Part shown: positions 8,866 through 16,647 of the stretch, in pieces | Layout of the letters: every line of letters begins with the position of its first letter | How positions within the stretch are numbered: the stretch's first letter is position 1 | Assembly (NCBI RefSeq): GCF_014400405.1 | Contig: NZ_CP060496.1 | Span: 1,364,001-1,428,000, forward strand | Origin: Brachybacterium sp. Z12 | Lineage (GTDB): Bacteria; Actinomycetota; Actinomycetes; Actinomycetales; Dermabacteraceae | Direction: 5' to 3' | Length of the DNA: 64,000 nucleotides | Position numbers and translations under genes: made by a program | The notes under the pieces: model-generated | What the model saw: only the letters and a program-made list of their open reading frames with translations | What the model was told of the DNA's origin: nothing | The model's database searches: none

Positions 8866-9307
8866 ATGGCGCACTCACCCCGCGTCGAGGACCGTGCCCC
8901 GGTCTTCGTGATCTCGGTGGCGGCGGAGCTGTCCGGGATGCATCCCCAGACTCTGCGCCAGTACGACCGGCTGGGCCTGGTGATCCCGCAGCGCACCCGG
9001 GGAGAGGCCGTCGCTACAGCACTCGCGACGTCACCCGCCTGCGGGAGATCCAGGCGCTCTCCCAGGACCAGGGCATCAACCTCGCCGGCATCAAACGGAT
9101 CCTCGAGCTGCAGGACGAGGTCACCGCGCTCTGGAGGGGAAGCTCGAGCAGGTGCGCGAGCGGCTCGGTGCGATGACGCCCGCGCAGCGTCGCGTGTTCT
9201 CCGCCGATCGCGACGGGGAGATCAGCGCCCTGCGCCGCGGCGAGCGCCCGCGCCGCCGCAGCACCAGCAACGCCCTGGTGGTGTGGCGGCCTACGCGCCG
9301 TTCCTGA
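8866..9307 (+). CDS. hspR: Heat-shock repressor HspR (MerR family), two indels
   Basis: Repaired length 147 residues. The intact first frame gives [20 protein letters not shown] and [13 protein letters not shown], the MerR winged-helix DNA-recognition segment specific to HspR. Adding one G near 9006 restores [20 protein letters not shown], and one base near 9130 restores [19 protein letters not shown] and a basic C-terminus ending in WRPTRRS at 9307. HspR binds HAIR sites and represses dnaK and clpB; sites of this type are present before both in this window. It closes its own operon (autoregulation). Its end overlaps the convergent glycosyltransferase by 17 bases. I believe both indels are sequencing errors. 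Confidence 0.88.
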
Positions 9308-10477
9308 TCTCGCGGGAGTGCTGGCGTGGGGTCACTGCGGCGAGCCGGTAGATCTCCTGGAGCTGCAGCGCCACCTGATCCAGGTCCACGCCCTCGGCCG
9401 CCTGCCGCCCGGCACCCGTGAGGTCCGCGAGATCCCCGGCCAGCAGTGCGGAGAGCTTTCGGGCGACCTGGCCCGCGAACTCGGGCCCGTCCCCGGTGAC
9501 CTGGTGCGTGAGCACCCCGTCGGGCATCGCGTCCCGGTACAACGGGATCCCTCGCACCAGCGTGGGGGTCTCGCTCGCCAGCGCTTCCCAGAGCACGATC
9601 CCCTCTGTCTCCTCCTTGGTGAGGAAGGCGAAGACATCCGCCCCGGCGTAGGCCTCCCGCAGATGTTCCGCGTCCACGTACCCGGGGAACAGTGCATTGG
9701 GCGGTGCCGTCGAGAGCGCGTGCTGGACCTCCGCGGTCAGCAGGCGCGGGTCGGTGCGCCCGTACCAGACGAAGCTCACCTCGGGCAGCTGCCTGGCGAC
9801 CTCGACCCAGTCCAAGATCCCCTTGCGCACCACCTGCATCCCCACGCTGATGACCACGGTGGCGTCGGGGGCGAGTCCGAGCCCTTCCCGCTGCCGTTCC
9901 CGTGCCGTCGGATCCGGGCGGAAGAAGCCGGTGTCCACGCCGTTGGACAGCACCCGGATCGGTGCGCTGATCCCGTATTTCGGGGCGGAGACCAGCTGCT
10001 TGGAGTAGTCGCTGGGGGTGACGACCACATCGCCGCGCCGGTACAGGTGTGCGATCCAGCGTCGGAAGAGAGGGGCGATCCGGTTCGATCCCGTGAAGGA
10101 ATCCCGGAAATCGTCCTCGGTGGAGTGGGCCCACATCAGCACCGGCCGCCGCCGCAGCCGGGCCCACGTCGCCAGCACGGGGGTGTCCGGGAAGGGGTGT
10201 TCAGATGCACCACGTCGAAGCGGCGCAGCGGATTGGTGATCACCTGGTGCCCGAGCGAGCGCACCGCCTTCTCCTGGTGACGCATCGCGGCGCCGATGCC
10301 TGATTCACGGGCGAGGCCTGCGAGACCTCGGGGCATCAGCACCCGCAGCGGCTCCTCGGCTCGGGCAGGCTGTTGCGGACCCCGGCCGGGCAGCACGGTG
10401 CCGGCCAGACGCTCGATCCGGCGGAGGGCACCGCCCCAGGGACGGTTGCTTCGCGGGTCGCGAGAACTCATGAGCAT
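9291..10477 (-). CDS. Glycosyltransferase (GT4-like), one indel
   Basis: Repaired length about 395 residues. The N-terminal frame carries [20 protein letters not shown] and ends in FDVVHLNTP; a missing base in the G run 10194-10197 leads into the frame [20 protein letters not shown]. Later come [28 protein letters not shown] and the [17 protein letters not shown] segment, the E-x7-E nucleotide-sugar site of GT-B retaining enzymes. It is the last gene of a three-gene operon with a TVP38-like membrane protein and another GT4 enzyme. The likely job is glycosylation of a membrane lipid; acceptor and sugar are unknown. Confidence 0.78.
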
Positions 10478-10490
10478 GGGGGAACTCCGT

Positions 10491-11140
10491 TCACCAGGGC
10501 AGGAATCGCATGACCAGGGTGCTGATGCCCAGCCCATAGGCGATCAGAGCCCATGGCTTGCACAGCAGGATGATCGCGACATAGGTGCGCCACCGCATCC
10601 GGGTGGTGCCGGCGATGTAGCACAGCAGGTCATCCGGTGCCACGGGCAGGGCGATCGCCACGGCGAAGGCGCGTGTGAAGTGGGGGCTGCGGGTCCAGCC
10701 GAGGAATTTCTCGACCGTGCGCGGGCGGAAGATCCGTTCGATGAGCGACATCCCCACGTTCCGGGCGATGAGGAAGTTCAGCAACGAGCCCGCGCACACC
10801 GCGATGTAGTTGTAGACCGTTCCCTCGACGGGGCCGAACAGCACCGGGCCGGCCAGCACGAGCAGCCCGGCGGGCACGATCGGGAACACCACCGAGGCGG
10901 CCGAGACCACCAGGAAGACGATCGGTCCCCAGGCCCCCAGAGAGTCGATGAACGCCTGCAGGTTCTCGAGGGACTGCAGCACTCCCGCCTGCAGCCCCCA
11001 CCAGACCAGGCCGATGCTGAGGCCGAGCCCCAGCAGGGGGAGAGCTGCGCGGCGAGCCGCAGCGGATCACGCGCAGGAGCTGCCGCCGGCGGCGACGAGG
11101 CGGTTCGTACGATCGGGATGCTGTCGGTGCTGGTGCTCAT
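10491..11140 (-). CDS. TVP38/TMEM64 (DedA-related) membrane protein, one indel
   Basis: Repaired length 216 residues with about five membrane helices. The core has FPIVPAGLLVLAGPVLFG, then the conserved NFLIARNVG and the PHFTRAFAVAIALPVAPDDLLCYIAGTT-type stretch with a functional Asp pair, the SNARE-associated/VTT domain. The first frame starts at ATG 11140 (MSTSTDSIPIVRTASS); a missing base at about 11041 leads into the rest. The start overlaps the upstream glycosyltransferase stop as ATGA. VTT proteins are linked to lipid scrambling and undecaprenyl-phosphate recycling, which fits its position between two glycosyltransferases. Confidence 0.8.
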
Positions 11141-12504
11141 GCGGCCACCGGTTGGCGGCGGATGATCTGCGGGGAGCGCCGCTCACGTGCCTGCTCGTAC
11201 ACGTCCAGCACGTGGCGGCCGAACTTCTTGGCGCCGAACGTGGCGTGGGCGTGCTCGAGGGCGGCCACGGCCATCTGCTCGCGCCGCAGCGGATCGTCGA
11301 GCAGGCTGTCCAGCTGGGTCGAGAACTGCGCGGCGTCCTCGTACTGCCAGCCGGTGCGGCCCTCGAGGATGACGTTCGTCAGCGAGGGGTCGCGCCGGGC
11401 CAGCAGGGGCAGCCCGCTGGCCATCGCCTCGATGAAGGTCAGCCCCTGGGTCTCGCTGCGGGAGGCGCTGACGAACACGTCCCCCACGCGATACCAGCGC
11501 TGCACCTCGGCAGGAGCCACCACTCCGGTGAAGCGGACGCGGCCGGCGATCCCGAGCGAATGCGCACGCGCCTCGAGCTCGGCGCGATAGGGCCCGTCGC
11601 CGACCAGCACCAGCACGGTGTCAGGGCGGTCTGCGGCGGCCACCATCTCCAGCACCTCGTCGAGGTTCTTCTCCTTGGCCAGGCGGGAGACGGAGACCAG
11701 CACCTTCTGCTCCTCGGCGATCCCGAGGTCGGCGCGCAGAGCTCTGGTGTCCGCGAGCTCCTCCGTGCTGCGGGCCGGGCGGAACTTGTTCAGGTCCAGG
11801 CCGGTGGGGATCACGTGCAGAGGCTGGTGCACGCCGTAGCCGGTGAGCAGGTCGGCGACCTTCGCGGTCGGGACGACCACGGCATCGGTACCAGCGAGGA
11901 CCCGGCGGGAGAACGTCTCGACGACCTTGCGGCCCATGGTCCGGCTGGGGGAGTAGTAGTGGGTGTAGTCCTCGTAGATCGTGTGATACGTGTGCACCAG
12001 CGGCACGGACAGGGTGCGGGCGATGCGTCGTGCCCAGACGTAGGTCGAGAACTCAGCCTGCGAGTGGACGACGTCGGGCCGCCAGTTCAGGATGTCTCGC
12101 AGCACGCGACGGCTCGAGGGCATGCCGACGCGGGCACGTTCGTAGACCAGCGCCGCGGAGACCGAACCGATGCGGTAGAGGCCCGGCTCATGATGGGGAC
12201 GGATCCCCTGCGAGAGCGTCAGCACCCGCACGTCGACGCCGAGCGCGATGAGCTCCCGTCGCAGCGTCTGGACGGAGGCCACGACCCCGTTGACCACGGG
12301 CTCCCACCAATCGGTGGTGATCAGCACTCGCAGGGGGCGGCGCGGCTCACTCGTCGTTCGTGGGCCGGGGCGCGTCGTCAGCATGTTCACGCTTCGAGCT
12401 TCCCACTCCTGCTCTGCGCTCGCGTCCGCCGTACGGAGGAACGGCATCAGACTGAGGTCTGATCTCCGACCTCTGCGCGTGCCCTGAGCTGTCCGGCTGT
12501 TCAT
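11137..12504 (-). CDS. Glycosyltransferase family 4 protein
   Basis: 455 residues, intact. RVLITTDWWEPVVNGVVASV, VVHSQAEFSTYVWARRIAR and VHTYHTIYEDYTHYY are the N-terminal Rossmann motifs seen in 1,2-diacylglycerol 3-glucosyl/mannosyl transferases; LVSVSRLAKEKNLDEVL and ETQGLTFIEAMASGLP give the C-terminal nucleotide-sugar site. It probably glycosylates a membrane diacylglycerol or polyprenyl lipid at the inner leaflet. It is first of the operon GT4-TVP38-GT; its stop overlaps the next start by four bases. The start at 12504 is the longest; an internal ATG at about 12384 would remove a low-complexity 40-residue leader and is equally possible. Confidence 0.85.
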   Translation of the reverse strand: MNSRTAQGTRRGRRSDLSLMPFLRTADASAEQEWEARSVNMLTTRPGPRTTSEPRRPLRVLITTDWWEPVVNGVVASVQTLRRELIALGVDVRVLTLSQGIRPHHEPGLYRIGSVSAALVYERARVGMPSSRRVLRDILNWRPDVVHSQAEFSTYVWARRIARTLSVPLVHTYHTIYEDYTHYYSPSRTMGRKVVETFSRRVLAGTDAVVVPTAKVADLLTGYGVHQPLHVIPTGLDLNKFRPARSTEELADTRALRADLGIAEEQKVLVSVSRLAKEKNLDEVLEMVAAADRPDTVLVLVGDGPYRAELEARAHSLGIAGRVRFTGVVAPAEVQRWYRVGDVFVSASRSETQGLTFIEAMASGLPLLARRDPSLTNVILEGRTGWQYEDAAQFSTQLDSLLDDPLRREQMAVAALEHAHATFGAKKFGRHVLDVYEQARERRSPQIIRRQPVAA

Positions 12505-13150: not shown

Positions 13151-14493
13151 ATGCCTGAGAACGCCTCCGACGCGTCCGCCGTCGAATTCACGCCCGTCGT
13201 CGTCGGCGGAGACATCGGTGCCTACTCCCTCGCACGTGCCTTCCACGAGGCGTACGGCATCCGCACCGTGGTCATCTCCCGCCTGGCGGGATGGGTGGTG
13301 GGGACCTCCTCCCTCATCGACAACGTGCGCTGCGAGGACCCGATGGACCCCGAGTCGCTGGCCCCGGTGCTGCAGCAGGTCGCCGATGCGCATCCCGGCC
13401 GGCCGCTGCTGCTGCTCGGCTCGGCCGACGCGACCGTCAAGCCCCTCATCCGGATCCGCGATGAGATCGGACTGGACCCGAGGTACATCGCCCCGTATGT
13501 CGATCTGGAGACCTTCGCGGCCGCGACGGAGAAGCAGAACTTCACCCAGCTCTGCCAGGACCTCGGAGTGGATCATCCGGGCACCGTGGTGGTCGACCTC
13601 GCCGAGGAGATCCCCGCGGATCTCGAGGTGCCCTTCGTGTTCCCGGTGATCGCCAAGCCGGCCGAGGTCTCCGAATGGAAGCGGATCGAGTTCCCGGGGA
13701 AGAACAAGGTCCACACCGTCGAGACGCCCGCGGACCTCCACGAGCTGCTGACCACCATCCGCGCGGCCGGGTACCGCGAGTCGATCATCGTCCAGGACCG
13801 CATCCCCGGTGATGACCAGTACATGCGGATCCTGACCGTCTACTGCGACGCTGACTCCCGCGTCCGCTTCGCGTCCTACGGCCACACGCTCCTGGAGGAG
13901 CACGCGCCGGGGGCGATCGGCAACCCCGCAGCGATCATCACCGGGGTGGACCGGGAGATGGTCGCCCAGGCGCAGCGCCTGTGCGAGCGTCTGGGCTGGA
14001 CCGGCTACGCCAACTTCGATCTCAAGCACGACCGTCGTGACGGCCGGACCAAGTTCTTCGAGCTCAACCCCCGCCTGGGGCGTTCGAACTACTACGTCAC
14101 CGCCGGCGGGCACAACCCCGTCACCTGGTACGTTGACGAGCACCTGCGCGGAACGCTGCCCGAGCAGGGGCCGGGCTCCGGGATCGGTGAGGACGGAATC
14201 CTCCAGGACCAGCCCGAGGTGCTCTACGCCGTCGTCCCGATCTCTCTGATCAAGCGGTACACCACCCTCCCCGAGGCTAAGGCTCGGCTGCGCCGGGTGC
14301 TGAAGGCCCGCCGGGTGGGCAACCCCTGCACTACCCCGGAGTGGACGACTCCCTCTCCCGGCGCCGGTACGTCCTGGCCGCGAGCCTGAACTCGGTGCTG
14401 AAGTTCCAGCGCTACTACCGGCCCGAGGGCGGTGACCGGTTCAGCCGCCTGCTGCGCCGCCGCTCCGGGGCGGGGCCGGAGGAGCGGGCGTGA
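13151..14493 (+). CDS. ATP-grasp carboxylate-amine ligase 1 (candidate D-amino acid-bridge ligase), one indel
   Basis: Repaired length 447 residues. N-terminal Rossmann part (VVVGGDIGAYSLARAFHEAY), then the ATP-grasp domain: FPVIAKPAEVSEWKRIEF with the ATP lysine, IIVQDRIPGDDQYMRILTVY, and the metal-binding FFELNPRLGRSNYYV. This layout is that of the COG3919 group, which includes the Enterococcus faecium D-aspartate ligase that adds D-Asp to the peptidoglycan stem lysine. A C missing in run 14323-14326 hides the last 55 residues. The stop overlaps the racemase start (GTGA), so both are made together. A paralogue of equal length lies at 15306..16647. Substrate is inferred. Confidence 0.8.
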
Positions 14494-15272
14494 CCGAGGC
14501 GCCGCAGGGCGCGGCAGGGGAGGGCCCCGGCGGCCACCTCGATTTCGGCGACTGGTCCCGTCCCGTCGTCGGCGTGCTCGGCGGTCTCGGACCGGCGGCG
14601 ACCTCGGTGTTCCTGGACGTGCTGATCCGTGCCACCGTGGCCGGCAGCGACCAGGAGCACATCGACCTGCTGGTCTCGCAGCACTCCACGACCCCGGACC
14701 GCACAGCCGGGATCCTCGTGCCCGGCGCGCCCGATCCCGGTCCGGTGATCGTCCGCGATGCGGTGATGCTCGAGCGCGCCGGGGTGGATCTGCTCGTCCT
14801 GCCCTGCAACACGGCCCATCACTACGCACGCCAGGTCGAGGCGGCCGCCACCATCCCGCTGCTGAGCATCGTCGAGACCACCGCGCGTGCCGCGGTGGAG
14901 AGCGCGGGCGGTGAGCCCATCGCCGTCTTCGCGACCGAAGGCAACATCCACGCCGGGGTGTACCAGGAGGCGATCCTCGCCCACGGCGGCACGCCGCTGG
15001 TCCCCGACCGCGCCGTGCAGGAGGACATCAACCACCTCATCTACGGGCAGGTCAAGGCCGGAGCGCCGGTGGATCTGAGCCTCTTCGAGTCCTGCATCGA
15101 GCGAGTGATCGACCGCGGTGCGGGCGTGGCCGTGCTGGGCTGCACCGAGCTGTCGGTCGTGTACGACCAGCACGGGTACCGGGGCGACGATCGGCTGGTC
15201 GACTCGCTCACCGAGCTCGCCCGGATCACCGTCCGTCGCGCCGGCAAGGAGCTTACCGAGCTCTTCCGGTGA
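14490..15272 (+). CDS. Aspartate/glutamate racemase
   Basis: 260 residues, intact. GVLGGLGPAAT is the N-terminal loop of aspartate racemase; the two catalytic cysteines are Cys106 in LPCNTAHHYA and Cys218 in VLGCTELSV. The enzyme interconverts L- and D-Asp or Glu without cofactor. Because its GTG start is inside the stop of ATP-grasp ligase 1, it very likely supplies that ligase with a D-amino acid. MurI would be expected elsewhere for stem-peptide D-Glu; the sequence is nearer to the aspartate racemase branch (RacD/RacX) than to MurI. Substrate not decidable from sequence alone. Confidence 0.88.
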   Translation: MTEAPQGAAGEGPGGHLDFGDWSRPVVGVLGGLGPAATSVFLDVLIRATVAGSDQEHIDLLVSQHSTTPDRTAGILVPGAPDPGPVIVRDAVMLERAGVDLLVLPCNTAHHYARQVEAAATIPLLSIVETTARAAVESAGGEPIAVFATEGNIHAGVYQEAILAHGGTPLVPDRAVQEDINHLIYGQVKAGAPVDLSLFESCIERVIDRGAGVAVLGCTELSVVYDQHGYRGDDRLVDSLTELARITVRRAGKELTELFR

Positions 15273-15277
15273 GCCGG

Positions 15278-15296
15278 CCCCGCGCGGTGCGCGGGG
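15278..15296. terminator. Bidirectional terminator between racemase and ligase 2
   Basis: CCCCGCGC, loop ggt, GCGCGGGG: perfect eight-base stem lying between two convergent stops, six bases after the racemase and nine before ligase 2. No T-run on either side. Confidence 0.6.
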
Positions 15297-15305
15297 CGTC
15301 TGGGC

Positions 15306-16647
15306 TCAGAACCCGGAGTCGGTCGGCCGGGGGTAGTGACGCAGGAACTTGCGCACGTGATTCAGCCCGACGATCCATGCATAGCGTCGCGCCCAGGCGC
15401 CGTCCGCCGGATAGGTCCACGGATTGCGCACCCCGCGCCGGGCGACCGTGCGGACCCAGCGCTTCAGAGCCGGATCGCGGAGGTAGCGCATCAGCAGCGG
15501 CATCGGGACCAGGGAGTAGAGGATCTCGTCGAACTCCGTGACCGGCTCGATCCGGCGGTGCTCGATGGCATCGGCCACCACGAAGCGGGCGATGTTGGCC
15601 CCTGCGGTCGAGACGTAGAAGTTGTTGCGCCCGATGCGGGGATTGACCTCGAAGAACTTCCAGGTCTCGTCGCGAGGGTCGCGCTTGACGTCGAAGTTCG
15701 CGTAGCCCCGGTAGCCGGTCGCCTCGAGCAGAGTCCGGGCCTGCCCGAGCGCGTCGTCGAAGGGGTGGTGATCATCGCGGCCGGTCGTCCCAGCGCGTCG
15801 GGCGTGTGCTCGCCCAGCAGCACCCGCGCCGAGCACAGCAGCGTGACCCGTCCGGCCGCATCGGTGTACGCAGTGATCGAGCCCTCGGCGGTGTCATCCC
15901 CGGGATCAGCTCCTGGACGACCAGACGGCCCCGATATCCGGCCCGCTCGATGGTGCGCACCAGGTCCTCGAGCTCGGAGGGGTCCTCGAGGAACCACACC
16001 TTCTTCTTGCCCTCGAAGCGCACCCCGGCCATGTCCGCGGTGCGGGCAGCCTTCATCACCACCGGGAAGGGCAGGTCGACGCGCACCGGCTCCTCGGACA
16101 GGCCCTGCGGTGCCCGGAGGTCGATGACCTCCGTGCGCGGCGTCGCGACCCCGTGCTCCGTGCACAGCCGCGCGAACTCCGCCTTGTCCGAGAGCTGCTC
16201 GAGGACGTCGGCCTCGAGGATCGGCAGCACATAGTGCGGGGCGAGCCGTGCGCGGTGATCGCTCATCAGCTGGATCAGCGAGTCGGCATTGGCCAGCAGC
16301 AGCTGCGGTCGCTGCCCGCCCCGCTCCTCGGCGAGCTCGACGGCGGCGTCGACGAGGTCCTCGTCGCGTGCCGCACCGCCCAGCTCGTGCACGTCGCAGG
16401 TGACCGAACGGCGCATCGGCTCGATGCCGACCTTGGTGAGCACCGTCGCGACCACGCCGTACTCCTCGTGGAAGGCCCGGGCGAGGGTGTAGACGCCGAG
16501 CCCGGAGCCCAGCAGCACCAGGTCGAAGCCCCCGGGCGCCGCGGTCGGCTCGCTCGCGGGTGCCGTGGTCGGCTCGCTCGCGGGTGCCGTGGTCGGTTCG
16601 CTCCCAGGCGCGGCGGAGGGATGCGAGGTGGTCTCTGGGTGAGGCAT
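15306..16647 (-). CDS. ATP-grasp carboxylate-amine ligase 2, two indels
   Basis: Repaired length 447 residues, the same as ligase 1. After a 35-residue Pro/Thr/Ala tail made of an eight-residue repeat comes FDLVLLGSGLGVYTLARAFH, then VVMKAARTADMAGVRFEGKK (ATP lysine), LVVQELIPG, and WKFFEVNPRIGRNNFYVS. The breaks are at C/G runs 15898-15901 and 15762-15765; one extra base in each rejoins the frames. It shares the 'NPR.GR.N.YV' active-site block and length with ligase 1 and is clearly its paralogue. It is convergent with the ligase 1-racemase operon. I infer it adds a second residue of the same bridge. Confidence 0.78.
16544..16603 (-). repeat. 24-bp tandem repeat in the ligase 2 N-terminus
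   Basis: Two exact 24-base units (16544-16567, 16568-16591) and a diverged half unit encode SEPTTAPA repeats in the disordered N-terminal tail of ATP-grasp ligase 2. Length variation between strains would be expected. Confidence 0.8.

Follow-up and report, generated by a model that had tools for sequence, protein, structure and literature searches.

Which amino acids would be joined by the two ATP-grasp ligases that are encoded beside a racemase in Brachybacterium sp. Z12, and into what product? The three genes occupy positions 13151 to 16647 of the 64,000-nucleotide stretch of contig NZ_CP060496.1 analysed here (positions 1,364,001 to 1,428,000), hereafter the window. Wall types of the A4 kind, with bridges that contain D-aspartate (D-Asp) or D-glutamate (D-Glu), have served for decades as a classification character for actinobacteria. 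We regard it as fairly likely that the locus builds an acidic interpeptide bridge of the peptidoglycan, with ligase A and racemase R providing the D-Asp step and ligase B the D-Glu step. This reading is carried by a division of the ligases into two classes that differ in their coupling to the racemase gene, and by the distribution of these classes among species with published wall chemistry. The features are given below, with residue 312 numbered as in ligase A.

13151..14493, plus strand: ligase A, a class I ATP-grasp carboxylate-amine ligase, whose frame is broken once, close to the 3' end (446-447 residues in relatives)
14054..14098, plus strand: active-site motif FFELNPRLGRSNYYV of ligase A, with the Ser312 codon at 14084-14086
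14490..14493, plus strand: GTGA overlap, the start of racemase R over the stop of ligase A, the stop being in frame only past the break
14490..15272, plus strand: racemase R, Asp/Glu racemase family, 260 residues (PF01177, TIGR00035), with PCNTAH and LGCTEL cysteine motifs
15273..15305, no strand: gap of 33 bases, stop to stop, between the convergent R and B
15306..16647, minus strand: ligase B, a class II ATP-grasp ligase with two frame breaks (about 440 residues in B. tyrofermentans)
15612..15656, minus strand: active-site motif FFEVNPRIGRNNFYV of ligase B, with Asn in place of the Ser312 of A

The trio outlined in the preliminary description, namely a ligase gene overlapped by that of a racemase and a second, convergent ligase gene, is present, and the gap between R and B measures 33 bases. 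Ligase A starts with ATG at 13151 and its reading frame is open until about position 14332, where it is broken; the GTG start codon of R overlaps a TGA (14491-14493) that closes A only beyond this break. Ligase B is in three frame pieces (16647 to 15306 on the minus strand), i.e. with two breaks. The breaks are probably sequencing errors, given that in the near relative L206 ligase A is intact (447 residues, with an identical GTGA overlap and identity to the window's A at 392 of its first 394 residues) and the frame of ligase B is open across both break points as far as the contig end, and given that the genome holding the window (3.51 Mb) is a single contig with a completeness of only 85.7%. 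The lengths in B. tyrofermentans are 446, 267 and 440 residues for A, R and B, respectively; the 447 residues first given for both ligases are right for A in L206. In 65 of the 74 class I-racemase pairs the racemase start is in frame and precedes the ligase stop by one base (NTGA overlap), which makes translational coupling a plausible and conserved feature of these pairs; the broken A-R pair of the window is one of the nine of 74 without such an in-frame overlap. The metagenome-assembled genome that includes L206 (G027) holds the trio twice (L206 and L207, with 99% and 91% identity to A), and its contamination of 6% suggests two mixed species.

The ligases gave only weak ATP-grasp matches in Pfam and NCBIfam, below the cut-offs, and no match in a PHROGs search, and a search of solved structures with them matched only carbamoyl-phosphate synthase chains. 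For an AlphaFold2 model of residues 1-394 of ligase A (predicted local distance difference test score, pLDDT, 91), the ATP-grasp matches in the PDB include carbamoyl-phosphate synthase, D-Ala-D-Ala ligase and, as the best match, the L-amino-acid ligase 3vot; by this model, ligase A folds as an ATP-grasp enzyme. K128, K169, D290, E304, N306 and R308, to which we presume catalytic roles, are near-invariant across the ligase alignment, including the lactobacillar ligases described below. In the same alignment ligase B has the ATP-grasp catalytic residues and homology to AslA-like ligases. The N-terminus of B (16528-16602, minus strand) carries a short repeated Ser-Glu-Pro-Thr-Thr-Ala-Pro stretch ahead of the ATP-grasp domain. 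As judged by its matches to PF01177 (7.9e-34) and TIGR00035 (1.8e-48; 165 bits, cut-off 93), R is a member of the Asp/Glu racemase family, and both cysteine motifs, which we take to be catalytic, are present. With the NCBIfam equivalog for the cysteate racemase CuyB (cut-off 190), R scored 192.8, and the racemases of B. avium (189.1) and Latilactobacillus curvatus (185) scored below the cut-off.

The two ligases had been described as sharing one active-site motif, but A has FFELNPRLGRSNYYV and B has FFEVNPRIGRNNFYV, and the Ser/Asn difference between them separates two classes of ligase. In a tree of 81 ligases, made after 25 long-branched or divergent rows out of 106 had been removed by hand, one branch with a support of 100/99 parts A and the Cellulomonas/Actinotalea ligases from B and from the two members of a tandem pair, T1 and T2. 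B and T1 form a clade (100/98). Two other arrangements, T1 and T2 as sisters and B and T2 as a clade, were rejected by the approximately unbiased (AU) test (p-AU 0.0223 and 0.0215, respectively). Class profiles were scored on 241 distinct ligases, of which 21 with a score gap within 50 bits were treated as ambiguous, and the count of racemase genes downstream required at least 900 bases of flank, which left out two ligases. R lies downstream of 73 of 88 class I ligases, none of the 130 class II ligases (B, T1 and T2) and 2 of the 21 ambiguous ones, a count that is a description and not a blind test, as the class I reference rows were hand-picked from the tree clade and are rich in racemase-linked members. 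Alignment position 312 is Ser in 75 ligases with R and 21 without, and Asn in 135 without R and in none with it; the eight ligases with other residues are all without R, as are the three class I members with Asn312. This pattern is mostly one ancient split and not 231 independent events. On the evidence of the alignment, Ser312 and Asn312 mark two ligase classes, and A and B, being of different classes, probably use different amino acids. Of the joint unit of two ligases and a racemase proposed at the outset, the coupling of A to R is retained, but the ligases differ in class and only A is paired with the racemase. Both the placing of the ligases in an AslA-like family and the conserved coupling to a racemase are supported.

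Plasmid records searched with tblastn yielded homologous ligases in L. curvatus, Lactobacillus crispatus and Limosilactobacillus fermentum (30-33% identity, expectation values (E) 1e-46 to 2e-55). The gene row is aspS, an amino-acid racemase and then the ligase in L. curvatus, and asnB followed by the ligase in L. crispatus; neither a racemase nor asnB is annotated within 4 kb of the L. fermentum ligase. These ligases are AslA-like by context, with function unproven in their records, and they stand in this comparison in place of the AslA and Aslfm sequences themselves. All three carry Ser312, and the class I profile gives them higher scores than the class II profile does. In a 59-row tree rooted on them, class II forms one clade (98/96) but class I does not resolve into a single clade. 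Given these three observations, D-Asp would be the ancestral substrate and D-Glu the derived one.

Some ligases lie outside the common arrangements. Knoellia subterranea has two class I ligases (L161 and L162) at separate places, neither followed by R, and a racemase relative is found on the opposite strand near one of them. Ligases L117 and L119 (family f4, small genomes) are in ligase-racemase pairs and have a GRSS motif like that of the lactobacilli; both of their class scores are low and within 50 bits of each other, and they are a possible third branch. Relatives of ligase A with 32-39% identity are also present in records labelled as phage (MT835538.1, OR848680.1 and OR847535.1, two Listeria phage), either as cargo or as mislabelled host DNA.

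Members of the ligase family were found in all 47 Dermabacteraceae genomes, in which slots were assigned by best match to the tree-defined groups A, B, T1 and T2. Nineteen genomes have A, R and B, three have A, R and T1 (three of the four genomes of genus g2, which includes Dermabacter and Helcobacillus), and 24 have the tandem T1-T2 pair without R. Two slots with one member each (A or T2, plus B or T1) are therefore filled in 46 of the 47, as the expectation of two ligases per genome had it; the trio is not, however, the bridge module of the family, since 24 genomes lack such a racemase and have class II ligases in both slots. R lies directly after A in 22 of 22 genomes and after T2 in none of 24, and racemase matches at E < 1e-70 are present in exactly those 22 genomes that have A. 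Among the 25 genomes without A, 21 have weaker racemase matches only (E 3e-21 to 7e-6), which surely include MurI genes; four have no racemase match at E 1e-5. The window's own genome has a MurI-like gene, named from its sequence, elsewhere. The exception to the two-slot pattern is G044 (genus g5), with a single divergent ligase (L170, 3880-4962) that has the Asn motif and no R; a shorter bridge would be predicted for this single-ligase genus. FemAB enzymes were not found in 43 of the 47 genomes, including that of the window, and the four genomes that have them (G002, G004, G005 and G026) are all of the T1-T2 type.

Dermabacteraceae are reported to have A4gamma walls with meso-diaminopimelate (meso-DAP), and Asp is reported in some species of this chemotype and not in others; the available portions of the chemotype papers name no bridge gene (PMC6090031, PMC3035206). 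Wall chemistry, as given in the available portions of the papers cited, could be compared with ligase class in 12 genomes, two of them (G523 and G519) identified approximately, and a thirteenth (G018) is of probable identity. Class I with R goes with Asp in C. flavigena (G653; Orn and D-Asp, PMC3035266), in Xylanimonas (G458, which has one class II ligase in addition; L-Lys-D-Asp, PMC3035249), in G523, approximately A. bogoriensis (L-Orn-D-Asp, PMC8878594), and, as A-R-B, in B. avium (G003; Asp present, PMC6090031). Class II alone goes with a wall formula or list that gives Glu without Asp in Jonesia (L-Lys-Ser-D-Glu, PMC3035236), Sanguibacter (L-Lys-Ser-D-Glu, PMC3035225), Kytococcus (L-Lys-Glu2, PMC3035214) and G519 (an A. 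species of approximate identity), and, as T1-T2, in B. faecium (Glu, Asp not listed, PMC3035206) and B. vulturis (PMC6090031). The cleanest contrast is that of B. avium with B. vulturis, for which the laboratory, paper and method are the same; both walls also yielded glycine (PMC6090031). In A. subterranea a small Asp signal was measured (0.55 versus 4.0 for Glu), and the authors' formula has D-Glu. The bridge of Intrasporangium calvum is Gly3 (PMC3035309), and no ligase family member was found in its genome (G264) at E 1e-20, which upholds the proposed tie of the family to acidic bridges. For Dermabacter, Devriesea, Ornithinimicrobium, Quadrisphaera, Pseudokineococcus, Knoellia and Puerhibacterium, no residue-level wall data were found in the portions of the literature available, and they enter no count. 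Beutenbergia (L-Lys-L-Glu) was not recognised among the sampled genomes and stands outside the wall counts, and Arcanobacterium (G424) has one distant family member with no class assigned. G650 and G382, presumably C. fimi and C. gilvus and both with class II ligases, were excluded from the wall counts, as their identities and walls are only presumed.

Ligases were counted at E 1e-20 at the levels of genus, family, order and class. Of the 81 genomes in the genus of C. flavigena, 77 have a single match, three have two and one (84% complete) has none, a few of the single matches being divergent or fragments; one ligase per genome is as expected for one-residue bridges. The family of C. flavigena has the ligase in 118 of 120 genomes, another family of the order, which includes I. 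calvum, in 65 of 148, and the whole order in 206 of 396. In the class, matches were found in 25 of 296 genomes, and beyond the order they reach only E 1e-21 to 1e-28. The number of ligases equals that of acidic bridge residues in C. flavigena, Jonesia and Sanguibacter, each with one of both, in A. carbonis, and in Intrasporangium with none. One ligase per bridge residue, as claimed in the preliminary description, fails in Kytococcus (Glu2, one ligase) and in Xylanimonas (one D-Asp, two ligases), and equality of the two numbers was dropped as a general rule.

Class I with R as opposed to class II alone matches Asp as opposed to no Asp in 10 of the 12 genomes, a modest association in support of the proposed link to wall type. 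Several points weigh against the assignment of D-Asp to A with R and of D-Glu to B. A. carbonis (L058) has class I and R yet is reported to have L-Orn-D-Glu, B. equifaecis has A-R-B yet no Asp is reported in the available portion of its description (PMC10581053), and G018, probably B. nesterenkovii, is reported with Asp although both of its ligases are of class II and it lacks R. Because of the first two, R as a sign of D-Asp was retained only as a tendency and not as a strict rule. Fisher tests, which treat species as independent although they are not, give p 0.030 for the 12 genomes, 0.086 with G018 added (10 of 13 agree) and 0.083 for the ten surest identities (8 of 10 agree). Thin-layer chromatography compositions reveal neither the chirality nor the position of the amino acids. 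A4gamma bridges have two residues, and the papers give A4gamma and composition only. Furthermore, R is missing downstream of 15 of the 88 class I ligases, and Kytococcus and Xylanimonas depart from the expected number of ligases.

These exceptions bear on the alternatives. The one that survives best, though unlikely, is that both ligases build the bridge and the classes do not differ in amino acid, R raising the pool of D-Glu or of any acidic D-amino acid and substrate choice being set elsewhere. The reported walls of A. carbonis and B. equifaecis would fit this, as would the identification of R, which reaches only the level of an amino-acid racemase, with CuyB scores on both sides of the cut-off. 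However, 10 of 12 genomes agree with the pairing of Asp and class I with R, the genome has a MurI-like gene for D-Glu in any case, none of the 130 class II ligases is followed by R, and the lactobacillar homologues have the Ser312 of class I. It is less probable still that only one ligase builds the bridge and the other makes a different change to the precursor, such as a carboxyl substituent, or is redundant. Xylanimonas, with a ligase of each class, is indeed reported to have a single D-Asp in its bridge, and in Kytococcus one class II enzyme may add both Glu residues, but each slot is filled by one member in 46 of 47 Dermabacteraceae, and Jonesia, Sanguibacter and C. flavigena each combine one ligase with one acidic residue. 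That the enzymes have no part in the wall and instead serve, as L-amino-acid or dipeptide ligases, to make a natural product or some other metabolite would accord with the best fold match (3vot) and with the sub-threshold Pfam and NCBIfam matches, but is highly improbable against their near-universal presence in whole families (47 of 47 and 118 of 120), their association with wall type and absence at E 1e-20 from the Gly3-bridged species, and their kinship to lactobacillar ligases beside a racemase or asnB.

The preferred reading is that of a D-Asp step by A and R followed by a D-Glu step by B. The genes, the two classes, the coupling to R, the co-occurrence of the slots, the lactobacillar homology and the modest wall association are observed; the substrates, the order of addition, the precursor used and the wall type of the strain we infer. 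R would racemise L-Asp to D-Asp, which ligase A would activate with ATP and join to the side-chain amino group of meso-DAP in a peptidoglycan precursor, a step drawn by analogy with AslA and Aslfm acting on L-Lys. Ligase B would next add D-Glu supplied by MurI, and the product would be a D-Asp-D-Glu bridge of the A4gamma kind. In species with T1 and T2, which have two class II ligases and no racemase, a D-Glu-D-Glu bridge would be formed.

Upstream of the trio (window positions 9291-12504) are several minus-strand open reading frames, of which 11137-12504 and 9291-10178 resemble glycosyltransferases by eye and 10491-10982 a DedA-type membrane protein.

A broader proposal, which we put forward tentatively as possible rather than probable, is a two-class code for the A4 bridges of Actinomycetales, in which the ancestral Ser312 class with its own racemase adds D-Asp, and the derived Asn312 class switched to D-Glu and lost the racemase because D-Glu is already supplied by MurI. 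If this were true, a slot swap (A and R for T2) would alter bridge chemistry within a genus, as in Brachybacterium and Cellulomonas, the acidic bridge and wall type would be predictable from the genome sequence, and bridge chemistry could be exchanged between strains to study how it is read by transpeptidases and endolysins. An open-access literature search found, at title and abstract level, no paper assigning the ligases of A4 D-Asp/D-Glu bridges, nor did any title or abstract found by an open-access full-text search mention an actinobacterial form of the pair, its second ligase or a division into two classes; their novelty is likely. The analysis provides candidate bridge genes, a residue that marks the two sequence classes, and predictions that harmless type strains would serve to test.

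Among known systems, FemABX enzymes likewise extend the stem peptide into a bridge, but they are an unrelated, aminoacyl-tRNA-dependent family and, as stated above, were not found in the window's genome. Aslfm/Racfm of Enterococcus faecium is a comparable ligase-racemase system. The ligase-racemase pair is already known as a kind from AslA/RacD of L. lactis, in which, according to the available portion of a review, the ATP-grasp enzyme AslA attaches D-Asp to L-Lys and is encoded in one operon with racD, and the bridge is amidated by AsnH (PMC4155827). Like A and R, an ATP-grasp ligase and a racemase of the Asp/Glu family thus share one operon. The order is racemase-ligase in L. curvatus and ligase-racemase with a four-base overlap in the window. 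The acceptor here is probably meso-DAP, with L-Orn or L-Lys in relatives, as opposed to the L-Lys of AslA/RacD. Unlike AslA/RacD, the window has an additional class II ligase without a racemase, convergent to R and not in an operon with it.

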